The notes under the pieces: generated by a model | What the model saw: the letters and a program-made list of their open reading frames with translations, nothing else | Told to the model about the DNA's origin: nothing | Databases searched by the model: none | In this document: piece by piece, positions 2 to 6,276 of the stretch | Position numbering within the stretch: the stretch's first letter is position 1 | How the letters are laid out: each line of letters starts with the position of its first letter | Assembly: GCA_945860265.1 (NCBI GenBank) | Contig: CAMAQF010000007.1 | Location: forward strand, 1-64,000 | DNA length: 64,000 nucleotides | Origin: Emticicia agri | Lineage (GTDB): Bacteria; Bacteroidota; Bacteroidia; Cytophagales; Spirosomataceae | Direction: 5' to 3' | Translations under genes and position numbers: made by a program

Positions 2-253
2 GTACACATTATTAAGTATGAAGACTTTAGAGCTAATCAGCAACAAGCATTAATTTACATTTTGCTTTTTTTAGGCTTAGACGATTCTACTTTCAATAAC
101 TTTGAAGAAAAGCAAATATATCATTTTCCATATACAACCGAAATGGATACAGCTTCTTTCAAGCTTTTGTATGAATTATTTATTCCTGAAATTGAAAAAA
201 TTGAAAAAATATTAAATTGGAACTGCTCCGACTGGAAATATGACAAAATATGA
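2..253 (+). CDS. Sulfotransferase, C-terminal fragment (cut by window edge)
   Basis: This open frame enters from the left edge and stops at the TAA ending at 253. Its first visible residues, HIIKYEDF, match the conserved YEDL/F element found after the 3'-phosphate-binding region of sulfotransferases. The C-terminal end, ILNWNCSDWKYDKI, resembles the usual sulfotransferase tail (LGWDxSDW). The N-terminal PAPS loop lies outside the window. The stop overlaps the start of the next sulfotransferase gene by 14 bases, so the two are probably translationally coupled and may act on the same product. The internal ATG at 62 is not a credible start because the frame is open to the left of it. The assignment rests on short motifs only. 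Confidence 0.65.
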   Translation, partial: VHIIKYEDFRANQQQALIYILLFLGLDDSTFNNFEEKQIYHFPYTTEMDTASFKLLYELFIPEIEKIEKILNWNCSDWKYDKI

Positions 254-1067
254 TTTAATTTGGTTGGCATCTTACCCGAAATCGGGCAATACTTGGCTAA
301 GGTGTTTTTTTTCTGCCTTATTTTACGAACAGGATTTTGATCTAAACAATCTTGAATTTGATGAGGTATATGCCAATCAAGCTATATTTTCGATGTTAGT
401 AAAAAAAAACATTGCTTATTTTGACGAATATAATTTAGAAATAGAAAGAAGAAAAGTCTTAGATTTTTATTTAAAGACTAAACCGTCGCCATATCTCCTT
501 AAAATTCACGATAAATATACGCTTTCAGCTTATGATGATTTACCTATTTTTCATACAAATCGGCCGACTGCCATAATTTATATTGTTCGCAATCCTTTTG
601 ATCTTACTATATCCTTTTCCAAATATTTAGGGTTAAGCGTTGATGAGATTATTAATAGATACGTGTGTAAGACAGGAGCAACAGTCTTTATGGATCATCG
701 TTTTCCAAGGCAAATTGGAACTTGGCAAGAACACTTGATGAGTTGGAAAGAGCAAACGGAAATTCCTGTGATTTTTATTCGTTACGAAGATTTGAAGATG
801 AATCCTTATCAGAATTTTAAAAAAATACTTTCCTTTTTATCACTAGATTTTACGGAAGAAAAAATTCGAGAAGCCATTAAGAAAAGTGATTTCAATACCT
901 TGAAGCAAATGGAAAGTATGGGAGGTTTTAGAGAGCGTTTATTGGCAGATATTCCTTTTTTTCACTCAGGTGAAATTGATAAGGGGGCAAAAGAGTTAAG
1001 TTATACTCAAAAACAAAAAATAAAAGACCAAAATCAAGAGGCAATGGAAATGTTTGATTATTTGTAA
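240..1067 (+). CDS. PAPS-dependent sulfotransferase
   Basis: The 275-residue protein should transfer sulfate from PAPS to a hydroxyl or amine of a small molecule or peptide. The 5'-phosphosulfate loop YPKSGNTW is at residues 12-19. A KIH element at 88-90 corresponds to the catalytic histidine region. The 3'-phosphate-binding segment IVRNPFDLTISFSKYLG starts near 115, with Arg117 and Ser125/Ser127. A YEDLKMNPY element follows, and a C-terminal region (GEIDKGAKELSYTQ) stands in for the usual GxxGxWK segment. No signal peptide or membrane helix is visible, so it is probably cytosolic. It overlaps the preceding sulfotransferase fragment by 14 bases. The short precursor-like ORF at 1117-1254 converges on it, which suggests sulfation of a secondary metabolite or peptide, but the substrate is unknown. 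Confidence 0.85.
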   Translation: MTKYDLIWLASYPKSGNTWLRCFFSALFYEQDFDLNNLEFDEVYANQAIFSMLVKKNIAYFDEYNLEIERRKVLDFYLKTKPSPYLLKIHDKYTLSAYDDLPIFHTNRPTAIIYIVRNPFDLTISFSKYLGLSVDEIINRYVCKTGATVFMDHRFPRQIGTWQEHLMSWKEQTEIPVIFIRYEDLKMNPYQNFKKILSFLSLDFTEEKIREAIKKSDFNTLKQMESMGGFRERLLADIPFFHSGEIDKGAKELSYTQKQKIKDQNQEAMEMFDYL

Positions 1068-1116
1068 ACAGGACCTCTAATTGAAAGTACGCACAAAAAG
1101 AGGCCATATTGATTAA

Positions 1117-1254
1117 TTAAGATGGTTTGTAAAGATTTATTTCACCTACCCCAAAAGGATCTCCTCCATTGAGATTCAACTCTTGCATCTCAGGGCTTAC
1201 CCATTCTTTTTTAGCATTTTGCTCTAATTCTTTTTTTTCTAAGTTATTTTCCAT
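1117..1254 (-). CDS. Candidate RiPP precursor peptide, lasso-like
   Basis: This 45-residue ORF begins with ATG at 1252-1254 and ends with TAA at 1117-1119. It has a charged N-terminal leader (MENNLEKKELEQNAKK), then EWVSPEMQELNLN, then GGDPFGVGEINLYKPS. The W-x-x-P-x-M-x-x-L spacing resembles the YxxPxL leader motif that PqqD-like RRE domains recognise in lasso and related RiPP precursors. If the core starts at the first Gly (residue 30), Glu38 is core position 9. If it starts at the second Gly, Glu38 is position 8. Both fit a Gly1-to-Glu8/9 macrolactam ring with tail INLYKPS. The usual penultimate leader Thr is absent (Leu or Asn instead). No maturation enzyme (B1, B2 or C protein) lies to the right; any would have to be left of the window. 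A -7 promoter element lies 22 bases upstream. The product class is inferred. Confidence 0.55.
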   Translation of the reverse strand: MENNLEKKELEQNAKKEWVSPEMQELNLNGGDPFGVGEINLYKPS

Positions 1255-1571
1255 GATAAATAGTGGTTTTTTATAACAAATATAATCATTTTTTTTTAAT
1301 AAAATTTTTTTAAAAAATAATTTAAGTGTTATCCTATTATTTCCGACAAATTTAGTAAATAAAATATTATTTTAAATAAAAAGAGAAAATAAAGAATTTT
1401 TAGTAAGTATTTCACCAAAAAGAATTAATTACTTTTCAGGCTCTATCAAAAACATTTTATTTGATAAATAGAAGAAAAAGAATCATTCACATTTTTTTAA
1501 TGATTCTTAATATTTTGCAATAACTTTACATATTTCTAAAATAATAAACTATCGACTTCGAATCAAAAACC
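1255..1571. other. AT-rich divergent intergenic region
   Basis: This region separates the minus-strand precursor ORF from the plus-strand DUF2911 gene. It is extremely AT-rich with long T and A runs. Apart from the -7 element at 1277-1284 and a weak TAACTTTA about 40 bases before the DUF2911 start, I see no gene, repeat or hairpin of note. Confidence 0.5.
1277..1284 (-). promoter_or_regulatory. Bacteroidota -7 promoter element for the precursor ORF
   Basis: On the minus strand this reads TATATTTG, a full match to TAnnTTTG, 22 bases upstream of the ATG at 1254. No convincing -33 TTTG is visible at the usual distance, because the upstream DNA is a poly-A/T tract. It supports the small ORF being a transcribed gene. 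Confidence 0.4.
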
Positions 1572-2150
1572 ATGAAAAAAACACTTTTATTACTCTGCCT
1601 TTTTGGCTTAATAATCATTGAAGCTAAAGCACAAAAACTTCGAGGAACAGACAAAAGTCCAATGGATATGGCGTATTATCCTGATAATTTTGCCCATGAC
1701 CGCAAATTTGCTCCAAAACTCATTGGCGATATGCCCGCTATTGTGCGTATAACTTATAGCCGACCAGCCAAAAAAGAGCGTGAGGTTTTCGGGACTAAAA
1801 TTGTGCCTTATGGAGAAGTTTGGCGTTTGGGAGCTAACGAATCGAGCGAGATAAAGTTTTATCAAGATGTAACGATTCAAGGCAAGAAAGTAAAAGCAGG
1901 AACATATTCGCTTTTTGCGATTCCAACGGCTACTGAGTGGACAATTATTTTGAACAATGATCTCGATTTTTGGGGAGCATATAGCTACAACAAAGACAAC
2001 GACGTGTTGCGTATAAGTGTACCGACAAAGAAAACCGACGAGGTAGTAGAAAACTTCTCAATTCAATGCATAAAAGGCATCAACGATAAAGAAACGACTA
2101 TGAAAATGGCTTGGGATATGACTTTGGTTGAAGTACCGATTTCGTTCTAA
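1572..2150 (+). CDS. DUF2911 family secreted protein
   Basis: This 192-residue protein has a Sec signal peptide (MKKTLLLLCLFGLIIIEAKA, cleavage just before or after Gln21), so it is probably periplasmic. The body matches the DUF2911 family: IVRITYSRPAKKEREVFG near residue 57, then VPYGEVWRLGANESSEIKF, KAGTYSLFAIP and NDLDFWGAYSYN. The family is widespread in Bacteroidota and has no established biochemical role. The gene stands alone and is followed by a strong hairpin terminator. The start is set by the signal peptide. Confidence 0.85.
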   Translation: MKKTLLLLCLFGLIIIEAKAQKLRGTDKSPMDMAYYPDNFAHDRKFAPKLIGDMPAIVRITYSRPAKKEREVFGTKIVPYGEVWRLGANESSEIKFYQDVTIQGKKVKAGTYSLFAIPTATEWTIILNNDLDFWGAYSYNKDNDVLRISVPTKKTDEVVENFSIQCIKGINDKETTMKMAWDMTLVEVPISF

Positions 2151-2177
2151 TCAATTAAAAATACGAATATTTCACAA

Positions 2178-2213
2178 AAAATGCCCTAAAGCACAATCTT
2201 TAGGGCATTTTTT
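2178..2213 (+). terminator. Intrinsic terminator after the DUF2911 gene
   Basis: A perfect 13-bp stem (AAATGCCCTAAAG at 2179-2191 with CTTTAGGGCATTT at 2198-2210) encloses a 6-base loop and runs into a T tract. A-runs on the other side would let it work in both directions. Confidence 0.85.
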
Positions 2214-2270
2214 AAGTGGTATTTTTGGCAAGAAAATGTACTTATAATTAAAAAAAATAGTTTGCGAAAA

Positions 2271-2318
2271 TTCGAAGCGACGGTCTCCTCTGAACCTCTG
2301 CAACTCTGTGCCTTTTGA
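2271..2318. repeat. Dispersed GC-rich repeat fragment
   Basis: This short GC-rich stretch (AGCGACGGTCTCCTC followed by TGAACCTCTGCAACTCTGTG) contrasts with the AT-rich surroundings. It resembles the CAGAGGTTCAGAG-type dispersed repeats common between genes in Cytophagales. The core AGCGACGGTC recurs, on the minus strand, in the repeat at 22680-22726. Confidence 0.4.
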
Positions 2319-3088: not shown

Positions 3089-3973
3089 ATGGAAAAGTAT
3101 CTAAAAATCATTCAAGGAGCATATACGGGCTATTTCAATTATTTCATTAACGAAATGCTCAATCCAAGCTGGCACAACTATTTTTACTGGTTAGTGGGAG
3201 CTTCTTTGGCTATTTGGTTGCTTGAAATCATGTTTCCGTGGCGAAAAAACCAGCCTTTGATTCGTGAACATTTTGGGTTGGATGCCTTCTATTTATTATG
3301 GAATTATTTTCTTTTTTCGCTTATTGCCTACAATGCCCTTTCGATGGTCGGCGTGCAGGCATTCAAAGATTTTCTTGGGCTTTTTGGCATCACAAATATT
3401 GTAGCAGTCAATATCGAGCAATTACCTTTTTGGTCGAAAATCCTCATTATATTCGTCGTCCGTGATTTTATGCAATGGTCTATTCATCGTCTTTTGCATA
3501 ATGTTGATTGGATGTGGGAATTCCATAAAGTGCATCACAGTACCGAAGAAATGGGATTTTCTGCCCTCCTACGCTACCATTGGATGGAAAACGTGATTTA
3601 TCGCAGCCTAGAGTACATTCCGTTGGCGATGGTAGGCGTTGGTTTGACCGATTTTTTTATCGTTCATATTTTTACCCTCATCATTGGTCAACTTGGTCAT
3701 GCTAATCTTAAAATAAATCTTGGTCCGCTCAAATACCTACTCAATGGCCCACAAATGCACCTTTTGCACCATGCAAAATATATGCCGGCAAATCACCCAA
3801 AAGGCTTTAATTATGGTATAACTTTGAGCGTTTGGGACTTTATTTTCAAGACAAACTATTGGCCATCTGATGATGAAAACCTTCCAATTGGCTTGCCTGA
3901 CGACGAGCATTTTCCAAAAGATTTTGTTGGTCAAAACGTAAGGCCATTTCAACGAATATTTAGAAAGAAATAA
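3089..3973 (+). CDS. Sterol desaturase / fatty acid hydroxylase family membrane protein
   Basis: This 294-residue integral membrane protein has hydrophobic helices at about 30-50, 65-90, 112-130 and 175-200. It carries the eight-His di-iron signature of the fatty acid hydroxylase superfamily: HRLLH (133-137), HKVHH (146-150), further His at 164 and 204, and HLLHH (224-228). Such enzymes hydroxylate or desaturate lipid C-H bonds using oxygen. Sterol or carotenoid substrates are possible, but the sequence does not say which. It is a single gene, 62 bases before the sorbosone dehydrogenase-like gene in the same orientation, and the two could share a transcript. The start codon directly precedes the conserved EKYLKIIQGAYTGYF region. 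Confidence 0.85.
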   Translation: MEKYLKIIQGAYTGYFNYFINEMLNPSWHNYFYWLVGASLAIWLLEIMFPWRKNQPLIREHFGLDAFYLLWNYFLFSLIAYNALSMVGVQAFKDFLGLFGITNIVAVNIEQLPFWSKILIIFVVRDFMQWSIHRLLHNVDWMWEFHKVHHSTEEMGFSALLRYHWMENVIYRSLEYIPLAMVGVGLTDFFIVHIFTLIIGQLGHANLKINLGPLKYLLNGPQMHLLHHAKYMPANHPKGFNYGITLSVWDFIFKTNYWPSDDENLPIGLPDDEHFPKDFVGQNVRPFQRIFRKK

Positions 3974-5379: not shown

Positions 5380-6276
5380 ATGTTAATCAATTTTCATATA
5401 GTTGATGTGTTTGCTGAAGAAAAATATCAAGGAAATCAGTTAGCTATATTTGAAAACGCAGATGGCTTGAGTGATGAAATGATGCTCAAAATTGCCCGTG
5501 AAATTAATTTTCAAGAAACTACTTTTATCATTTCTGATGAAGAAAAAAACGGCGGATTTGATATAAAAATTTTCACACCCGAATACCAAGTTCCATTTGC
5601 GGGGCATCCAACTTTAGGAACTGCATTTGTTTTACTAAATTATCCTCAAAATAAAGATAAAAAAAGGATCAAACTCAATCTAAAAATTGGACAAGTACCC
5701 GTAACTAAGGAAAATGAAACGCTTTGGTTAGAAGTTGGAAATCCTATTTTTGGCAAGATTTTTAATTCAGAAATCGCCAATTTGTTTGGTTTAAAACCAG
5801 AGGATTTTGATGATAAATATCCAATAGAAGTAGTTTCAACTGGGCTTCCATATCTTATACTTCCTCTTAAAAAACTTGCAACTATCCAACGCATCAAATT
5901 CAACGATGTACAAATAAAAAACTGGCTTCTTGACAATCATTTATATAAAACCAATGCTCCCGATGAGTTAACAACTGCATTTTTTGCTTTCACGCGTGAA
6001 ACCGAAAAGGCCAACAACCAACTTCATGCACGAATGTTTTGTTATGAAAACGAAAAAATAGTAGAAGATGCCGCCACAGGTAGTGCCAACTCGAGCTTGC
6101 TCGCCTATTTACTCAAATACGAATCAAACAAAATAAGCTGCCGAGTAGAGCAAGGTTACGAAATGGGACGGCCTTCGCTTATTCACTTAAGAGGAGAGTT
6201 AAACGAAAAACAAAATTTCAGTTTAAATGTTGGTGGAAAAACAAAGTTGATTGCACAAGGCAAATGGTTTGTTTGA
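5380..6276 (+). CDS. PhzF family isomerase/epimerase
   Basis: This 298-residue protein has the two-lobed diaminopimelate-epimerase-like fold of PhzF proteins. Diagnostic segments are VDVFAEEKYQGNQLAIF near the start, NFQETTFI with the catalytic Glu46, FTPEYQVPFAGHPTLGTAF, and EDAATGSANSSLLAYL in the second lobe. PhzF in pseudomonads isomerises DHHA in phenazine synthesis. The many homologues outside phenazine clusters are of unknown substrate, and there is no phenazine cluster here. It has no signal peptide and is probably cytosolic. The gene is 45 bases upstream of mtgA on the same strand but shows no functional link to it. Confidence 0.85.
   Translation: MLINFHIVDVFAEEKYQGNQLAIFENADGLSDEMMLKIAREINFQETTFIISDEEKNGGFDIKIFTPEYQVPFAGHPTLGTAFVLLNYPQNKDKKRIKLNLKIGQVPVTKENETLWLEVGNPIFGKIFNSEIANLFGLKPEDFDDKYPIEVVSTGLPYLILPLKKLATIQRIKFNDVQIKNWLLDNHLYKTNAPDELTTAFFAFTRETEKANNQLHARMFCYENEKIVEDAATGSANSSLLAYLLKYESNKISCRVEQGYEMGRPSLIHLRGELNEKQNFSLNVGGKTKLIAQGKWFV

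Follow-up and report, generated by a model that had tools for sequence, protein, structure and literature searches.

Does a small open reading frame (ORF) at the end of a contig of Emticicia agri encode the precursor of a lasso peptide, and do the sulfotransferase genes next to it act on the product? The analysed stretch of DNA, called the window in the following, comprises the first 64,000 nucleotides of contig CAMAQF010000007.1 (contig C7). The ORF, designated P1, has 45 codons and was found on the minus strand from 1254 to 1117, where it encodes MENNLEKKELEQNAKKEWVSPEMQELNLNGGDPFGVGEINLYKPS; the original prediction had described a 45-residue ORF without its strand, and reading of the frames showed the plus strand at 1117-1254 to be interrupted by stops. 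Residues 1-30 (1165..1254, minus strand) constitute the leader, in which W18, P21, M23 and L26 form the proposed motif W-x-x-P-x-M-x-x-L and Asn29 occupies position -2. The sole Glu of the core is E38, which is at position 8 counted from G31 and at position 9 counted from G30. Cleavage of the leader is predicted between residues 30 and 31, and Gly31 and Glu38 would close a macrolactam ring of eight residues (GDPFGVGE; 1141..1164, minus strand), followed by a predicted loop and tail read directly as INLYKPS (1120..1140, minus strand). In this tail, Tyr42 (1129-1131) and the C-terminal Ser45 (1120-1122), both on the minus strand, are putative acceptors of modifications.

A DNA search of the same genome revealed a near copy of the P1 leader region on contig C22 (94% identity over 189 bases). 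It belongs to a second precursor gene, P2, whose residues 1-29 are identical to those of P1, with two silent differences in 87 bases, while from codon 30 onward the two sequences change sharply. We take this sharp border between leader and core as a RiPP trait. The cores of P1 and P2 differ but both keep Gly31, Glu38, Pro44 and Ser45, and the precursor features (leader motif, Gly at core position 1, Asp or Glu at positions 7-9) are thus present in both intact copies. Residue 30 of P2 is a Thr, and residues 31 and 38 are again Gly and Glu; Gly31 would therefore be the first core residue and the ring to Glu38 would have eight residues, which favours position 8 over position 9, the two places that had been offered for the single core Glu. 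The 100 bases upstream are also alike (1255..1356, minus strand, for P1), so the copies are recent. The octamer TAnnTTTG precedes both precursors and was considered as promoter, yet its count in L009 equals chance (33 seen, 30.9 expected) and it was rejected. With P1 and C22 together, two precursors are intact, and a third copy on C22 is degenerate (L009:286-354). Of 222 genomes searched with a leader profile, 6 besides the own one contained weaker homologues (best E 5e-8 to 8e-3). The matches in G127, G145, G102, G100 and G049 are accompanied by lasso-cluster genes, except for L075, one of two G102 regions with a leader match, which contains tailoring genes only. Based on direct reading, the C22 paralogue and these weaker leader homologues, P1 is almost certainly a lasso precursor gene, and the lasso reading of P1 is strongly supported.

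Because the window starts at the end of contig C7, it could not show the processing enzymes, whose absence had been raised as an objection. This objection is weakened by two other contigs of the same genome. Contig C22 carries P2, the degenerate third precursor, a cyclase gene (448-2316, minus strand), HPrK1, ST1, a truncated B2, a CxxCxxCC protein, HPrK2, B1, B2, and genes for an NTP_transf_5 protein, a methyltransferase and an APS kinase; HPrK1 and ST1 overlap by 20 bases. Contig C157, with 3939 bases, carries a partial CxxCxxCC gene, a second cyclase C2, a UDPGT-type glycosyltransferase in two frames (L015:2212-3561) and the N-terminal part of the sulfotransferase ST3. B2 was recognised as a transglutaminase-like leader peptidase by PF13471 (54.7 bits, cut-off 26), for which it gave the only match in the genome, and by NF033537 (46.0, cut-off 33), and the PqqD-like B1 was recognised as a leader-binding protein by PF05402 (45.0 bits, cut-off 23.4), with NF033536 as its best NCBIfam match (38.2, below the cut-off of 80). 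Cyclase C1 matched PF00733 (Asn_synthase) with 85.5 bits (cut-off 21), as expected for a macrolactam cyclase, and its best NCBIfam match was the lasso cyclase model NF033535 with 270.8 bits, below the cut-off of 525; C2 is 49% identical to C1. A cyclase scan of the genome contigs resulted in four loci, one of them a weak match. HPrK2 reached 20.7 bits with PF07475 (cut-off 33.3), HPrK1 had no match, and the HprK_rel matches of the HPrK-like proteins were far below the NCBIfam cut-offs. The CxxCxxCC gene (PF03692) is a frequent neighbour of lasso cyclases, with 14 matches in 13 of the 101 loci read, including L009:4800-5300, L015:1-381 and 11 other loci.

The arrangement of the three contigs can be deduced from a congener, G103, in which a complete lasso cluster is present on one contig (L079). 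The left neighbours of this cluster match C22 genes with 87, 78 and 89% identity, while its right neighbours match the window genes at 3089, 5380, 6322 and 7754 with 84, 66, 79 and 91%. Two of these, both on the plus strand and outside the cluster, are the gene 3089..3973, which we take to be sterol-desaturase-like and whose counterpart follows the lasso cyclase in L079, and the presumably PhzF-like gene 5380..6276, which matches the next L079 gene. This synteny on both sides puts the cluster at the left end of the window and C22, C157 and C7 in one row, and it thereby places the enzymes to be sought left of the window on that side. Judged by sequence, C22, C157 and C7 thus appear to be one locus, on contigs that are not physically joined. 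The two pieces of ST3 match one and the same intact L075 sulfotransferase, the end of C157 with 68% over residues 8-126 and the window frame 2-253 with 53% identity over residues 179-260; C157 therefore probably continues into C7, with about 52 ST3 residues missing between them. The window genes 1572-2150 and 2325-2822 had no match in L079; a gene like the former occurs in L010 (a match on contig C1), where no lasso genes were recognised. An interspersed intergenic repeat of approximately 50 bases is located at about 2276-2327 of the window; its copies, 88-94% identical, lie on contigs C26, C1, C104, C25, C2, C14 and C4.

Thr at leader position -2 is usual in lasso precursors, although it does not define them. 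Its absence, also raised against P1, is real, with Asn29 at this position, but the objection is weakened by the relatives. The pattern [ND]-x-G-x6-E was found in 11 precursors from G000, L072, L073, L075, L080 and L191 and in none of the 25 remaining clusters of a hand-curated list of 31. It fits one of two precursors in L075 and three of six in L191, and the remaining precursors of these two clusters deviate at -2 or have their Glu elsewhere. Elsewhere in the same GTDB family, loci such as L100 keep the usual Thr. With six of 31 clusters having the pattern, Asn or Asp at -2 appears as a recurring variant, and it would escape searches keyed to the usual Thr.

Two adjacent sulfotransferase genes had been proposed next to P1, and both were confirmed, ST2 by PF00685 (89.8 bits, cut-off 22) and ST3 by homology to L075, only its C-terminal part being located in the window. 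ST2 (275 aa; 240..1067, plus strand) is convergent with P1. The 83 C-terminal codons of ST3 (2..253, plus strand) are truncated by the contig end and share 14 bases with ST2, an overlap also present in L075; alone, this frame gave no Pfam match at E ≤ 0.001. The closest solved sequences to ST2 were Teg14, Teg12 and the tyrosine-ester sulfotransferase SULT1D1, and the title of structure 3mgb names a complex with teicoplanin aglycone. The ST2 model had a pLDDT of 86.6, and SULT folds were its top matches, with a TM of about 0.6 and an rmsd above 5. YPKSGNTW, K-x-H-D, R117 and S125 are conserved without exception in the 12 aligned sulfotransferases, presumably as the PAPS loop and, for K-x-H-D, the catalytic His, roles which we assign from SULTs. 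ST1 matched SULT1B1 and Teg12, while the best match of the L075 relative of ST3 was an unnamed sulfotransferase, followed by heparan-sulfate 3-O-sulfotransferases. From these nearest matches and the fold, we infer an aryl hydroxyl as the possible substrate of ST2 and a sugar as that of ST3. The predicted occurrence of such precursors beside sulfotransferases in relatives was borne out by G102, in which, on one contig, two related precursors face a convergent row of ST2, ST3 and glycosyltransferase as in the window, with short ST2-like frames between the precursors (L075:7682-8037) and an APS kinase nearby; the nearest B2 was found about 0.2 Mb away.

APS kinase makes PAPS. In tests conceived after the data had been seen, APS kinase was found in 6 of 12 sulfotransferase loci versus 1 of 88 others (p = 5e-6; L015 as part of the window's own cluster set aside). 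Restriction to loci of at least 18 kb gave 6/12 versus 0/76, and additional counting of three g2 loci as one gave 4/10 versus 0/76 (p = 1e-4). One of the six APS kinase loci, L165, contains only a 70-residue fragment together with a broken HPrK. L191 and L192 had no APS kinase match, and with both added, the fraction is 6 of 14 sulfotransferase loci. As a second APS kinase is encoded elsewhere in the own genome, the cluster copy is not the sole source of PAPS. The APS kinase, the PAPS-site residues and the kinship to aryl sulfotransferases place sulfation on a better footing, and on sequence grounds sulfation of the product is likely.

What can be read directly are precursors, B1, B2, two cyclase-type proteins, HPrK-like proteins, three sulfotransferases, a glycosyltransferase and an APS kinase. 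In the pathway that we propose, B1 would bind the W-x-x-P-x-M leader and B2 would cleave after residue 30. The cyclase would activate Glu38 and join it to Gly31, yielding an 8-residue ring threaded by INLYKPS, and an HPrK-like enzyme would phosphorylate the C-terminal Ser as in paeninodin. With PAPS supplied by the APS kinase, the SULT-type ST2 would sulfate the aryl hydroxyl of Tyr42, while the glycosyltransferase would add a sugar to be sulfated by the heparan-type ST3. The order of the steps and the acceptors are guesses. The product is probably a decorated lasso peptide. That P1 is the intact precursor of a lasso cluster split over C22, C157 and C7 and is decorated in this way appears quite probable, and there is good reason to expect that it belongs to a cluster whose sulfotransferases act on the cluster's product. 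Rather unlikely as a whole, and offered as a tentative generalisation, is a Bacteroidota family of sulfated, partly glyco-sulfated lasso peptides, with HPrK-ST1 acting on the precursors, a portable glycosyltransferase-ST3-ST2 row bringing its own precursors and decorating the tail Tyr, and a dedicated APS kinase.

Candidate acceptors of sulfate are Tyr42, Ser45 and any sugar that the adjacent glycosyltransferase attaches, and it is here that the most serious alternative arises, to which we give somewhat less than an even chance: the lasso cluster is real, but its sulfotransferases modify a sugar or the region of the C-terminal Ser instead of Tyr, and the tail Tyr serves as a steric lock holding the thread. 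Tyr steric locks are known, with caulonodin IV named in the accessible part of PMC13352647. A Tyr in the last 12 residues (tail Tyr) of at least half of the precursors was found in 7 of 13 sulfotransferase clusters versus 3 of 18 others (p = 0.05), and any Tyr in 8/13 versus 3/18 (p = 0.02), both comparisons having been devised after the data were seen and L072 being counted without sulfotransferase though G102 has some elsewhere. After collapsing some kin, which removed only L139, L140, L143, L144, L084, L102 and L106, the tail Tyr counts were 6/12 versus 3/12 (p = 0.40). Before the 31 clusters were counted, Y-x-x-P type precursors, short spurious frames within large genes or next to them, the degenerate third C22 copy, a truncated L084 copy and L165, where no precursor was found, had been dropped; two of the four precursors of L072 are near copies. 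The five clusters L071, L074, L079, L080 and L166 have a sulfotransferase without a tail Tyr, L079 being the complete cluster of the congener. Tyr accompanies this UDPGT-type glycosyltransferase in 4 of 4 clusters versus 6 of 27 without it (p = 0.007; post hoc and based on four clusters), so that Tyr could also be glycosylated, and the kin of ST3 include sugar sulfotransferases. Against this, the closest solved sequences to ST2 are aryl or phenol sulfotransferases, and Tyr is present in all six precursors of L191, a cluster with a sulfotransferase in which this glycosyltransferase model found no match. A Ser is the C-terminus of at least one precursor in 31 of 31 clusters, with or without sulfotransferase, which would fit a kinase step as in paeninodin and makes Ser, besides a sugar, a further possible sulfate site. 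Taken together, these counts lend slight support to Tyr42 as acceptor, and sulfate on Tyr42 itself is rather doubtful.

That the sulfotransferases serve another pathway, e.g. for a surface polysaccharide, and merely neighbour the lasso genes is improbable. Lasso biosynthesis has no general need for them, as 88 of 100 lasso-related loci are without one. SULT-type sulfotransferases were present in 12 of 101 loci read, which had been collected through searches for B2, cyclases, leaders and sulfotransferases; 13 of 48 g8 genomes with B2 were fetched and other B2 places in part (e.g. without G168), and such fractions are not population estimates. HPrK is directly upstream of 12 of the 14 sulfotransferase genes in these 12 loci, the remaining two being the ST2-type genes of L075, and in 11 of the 12 pairs HPrK overlaps or abuts the sulfotransferase gene (-86 to +4 nt with mechanically set start codons). 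Such pairs, mostly overlapping, occur beside B1-B2 in two families of the order and also in a lasso locus of one Bacteroidetes MAG and argue against a separate pathway, as do the convergence of ST2 with precursors in two genomes and the APS kinase enrichment. In the other family, both L191 and L192 contain HPrK-ST pairs, L191 in the order HPrK-ST-B1-B2 with six precursors. Among 222 genomes of the family, 114 carry a B2, 4 a close cyclase (E ≤ 1e-60) and 8 an ST2-like protein (E ≤ 1e-10); across the order, the aligned sulfotransferase family was detected at E ≤ 1e-60 in 8 of 390 genomes, two of which represent another family. All these counts include the own genome.

Two side observations were made in these loci. 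Arrays of 11 to 14 lasso-like precursors are present beside HPrK-ST1-B1-B2 and APS kinase in L083, L084 and L086 of genus g2, many of them ending in ..DGG.K.Y or ..K.S. Tandem genes starting like MDEYIGxIKxFAG, which we take to be tail-collar-like, adjoin lasso genes in three genomes (L073:1056-2131, L074:12641-16455, L080:11591-15327).

Just as improbable is that the window copy is a dead relic of a cluster decayed by rearrangement, with P1 yielding no product. Decay is visible in the truncated B2 and cyclase start remnant on C22 (L009:4467-4805), in the degenerate third precursor and in the split glycosyltransferase frame of this assembly; however, the frames of B1, B2, two cyclases, the HPrKs, ST1 and ST2 are full-length, and the P1 and P2 leaders differ by silent changes only. 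That P1 is a chance frame and no gene has a practically negligible probability, as a C22 paralogue with identical leader and relatives with similar leader and ring spacing stand against the results of the model searches, in which P1 had no NCBIfam match and, as the one match to a leader or precursor family model, a single Pfam match with E 0.11, below its cut-off.

No sulfated lasso peptide was found in the literature searched, which was mostly without subscription papers (the paeninodin paper included), nor in the accessible parts of PMC9266682, PMC13352647, PMC13381572, PMC9484694, PMC12325987, PMC10352776 and PMC7533575. As far as it was accessible, a 2026 review (PMC13352647) lists phosphorylation, glycosylation and acetylation, among others, as lasso modifications, but not sulfation. 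The probable product is a decorated lasso peptide, and our search brought up no published example of its kind. Sulfotransferases of Firmicutes lasso clusters have been noted before without a function in the accessible text: some clusters start with a putative sulfotransferase gene (PMC8498205), and in anaerobes, lasso clusters with HPr kinase and sulfotransferase were noted in a genome survey (PMC4289311). The present cluster, with its G102 kin on one contig, offers a concrete precursor with a predicted ring and candidate acceptors, together with three different sulfotransferases.

Among known systems, Teg12, Teg14 and StaL share the SULT fold with ST2, Teg14 and Teg12 being the closest solved sequences and StaL ranking further down, with about 20% identity over the fold. 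These three enzymes sulfate a peptide antibiotic, and their substrate is non-ribosomal. The RaxX/RaxST system, with its tyrosine-sulfated peptide, has no lasso enzymes, and its sulfotransferase is of a different type. According to a reference title in PMC9484694, RaxX/RaxST represents a bacterial sulfated peptide. The cluster of pseudomycoidin, a phosphoglycosylated lasso peptide (PMC8498205, PMC9266682, as far as accessible), contains a kinase and a nucleotidyltransferase, comparable to the HPrK-like and NTP_transf_5 genes beside B2; unlike here, the accessible text mentions no sulfotransferase, UDPGT-type glycosyltransferase or APS kinase for it. With the paeninodin-type clusters of Firmicutes, the present cluster has in common B1, B2, an Asn-synthetase-like C protein, an HPrK-like gene and a C-terminal Ser. 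In contrast to these, whose sulfotransferases are known here by description, the present cluster resides in a Bacteroidota host, its HPrK forms a tight operon with a SULT-type sulfotransferase, its precursors have Asn or Asp instead of Thr at -2, and it additionally comprises an APS kinase, a CxxCxxCC protein and an extra glycosyltransferase-ST3-ST2 row.
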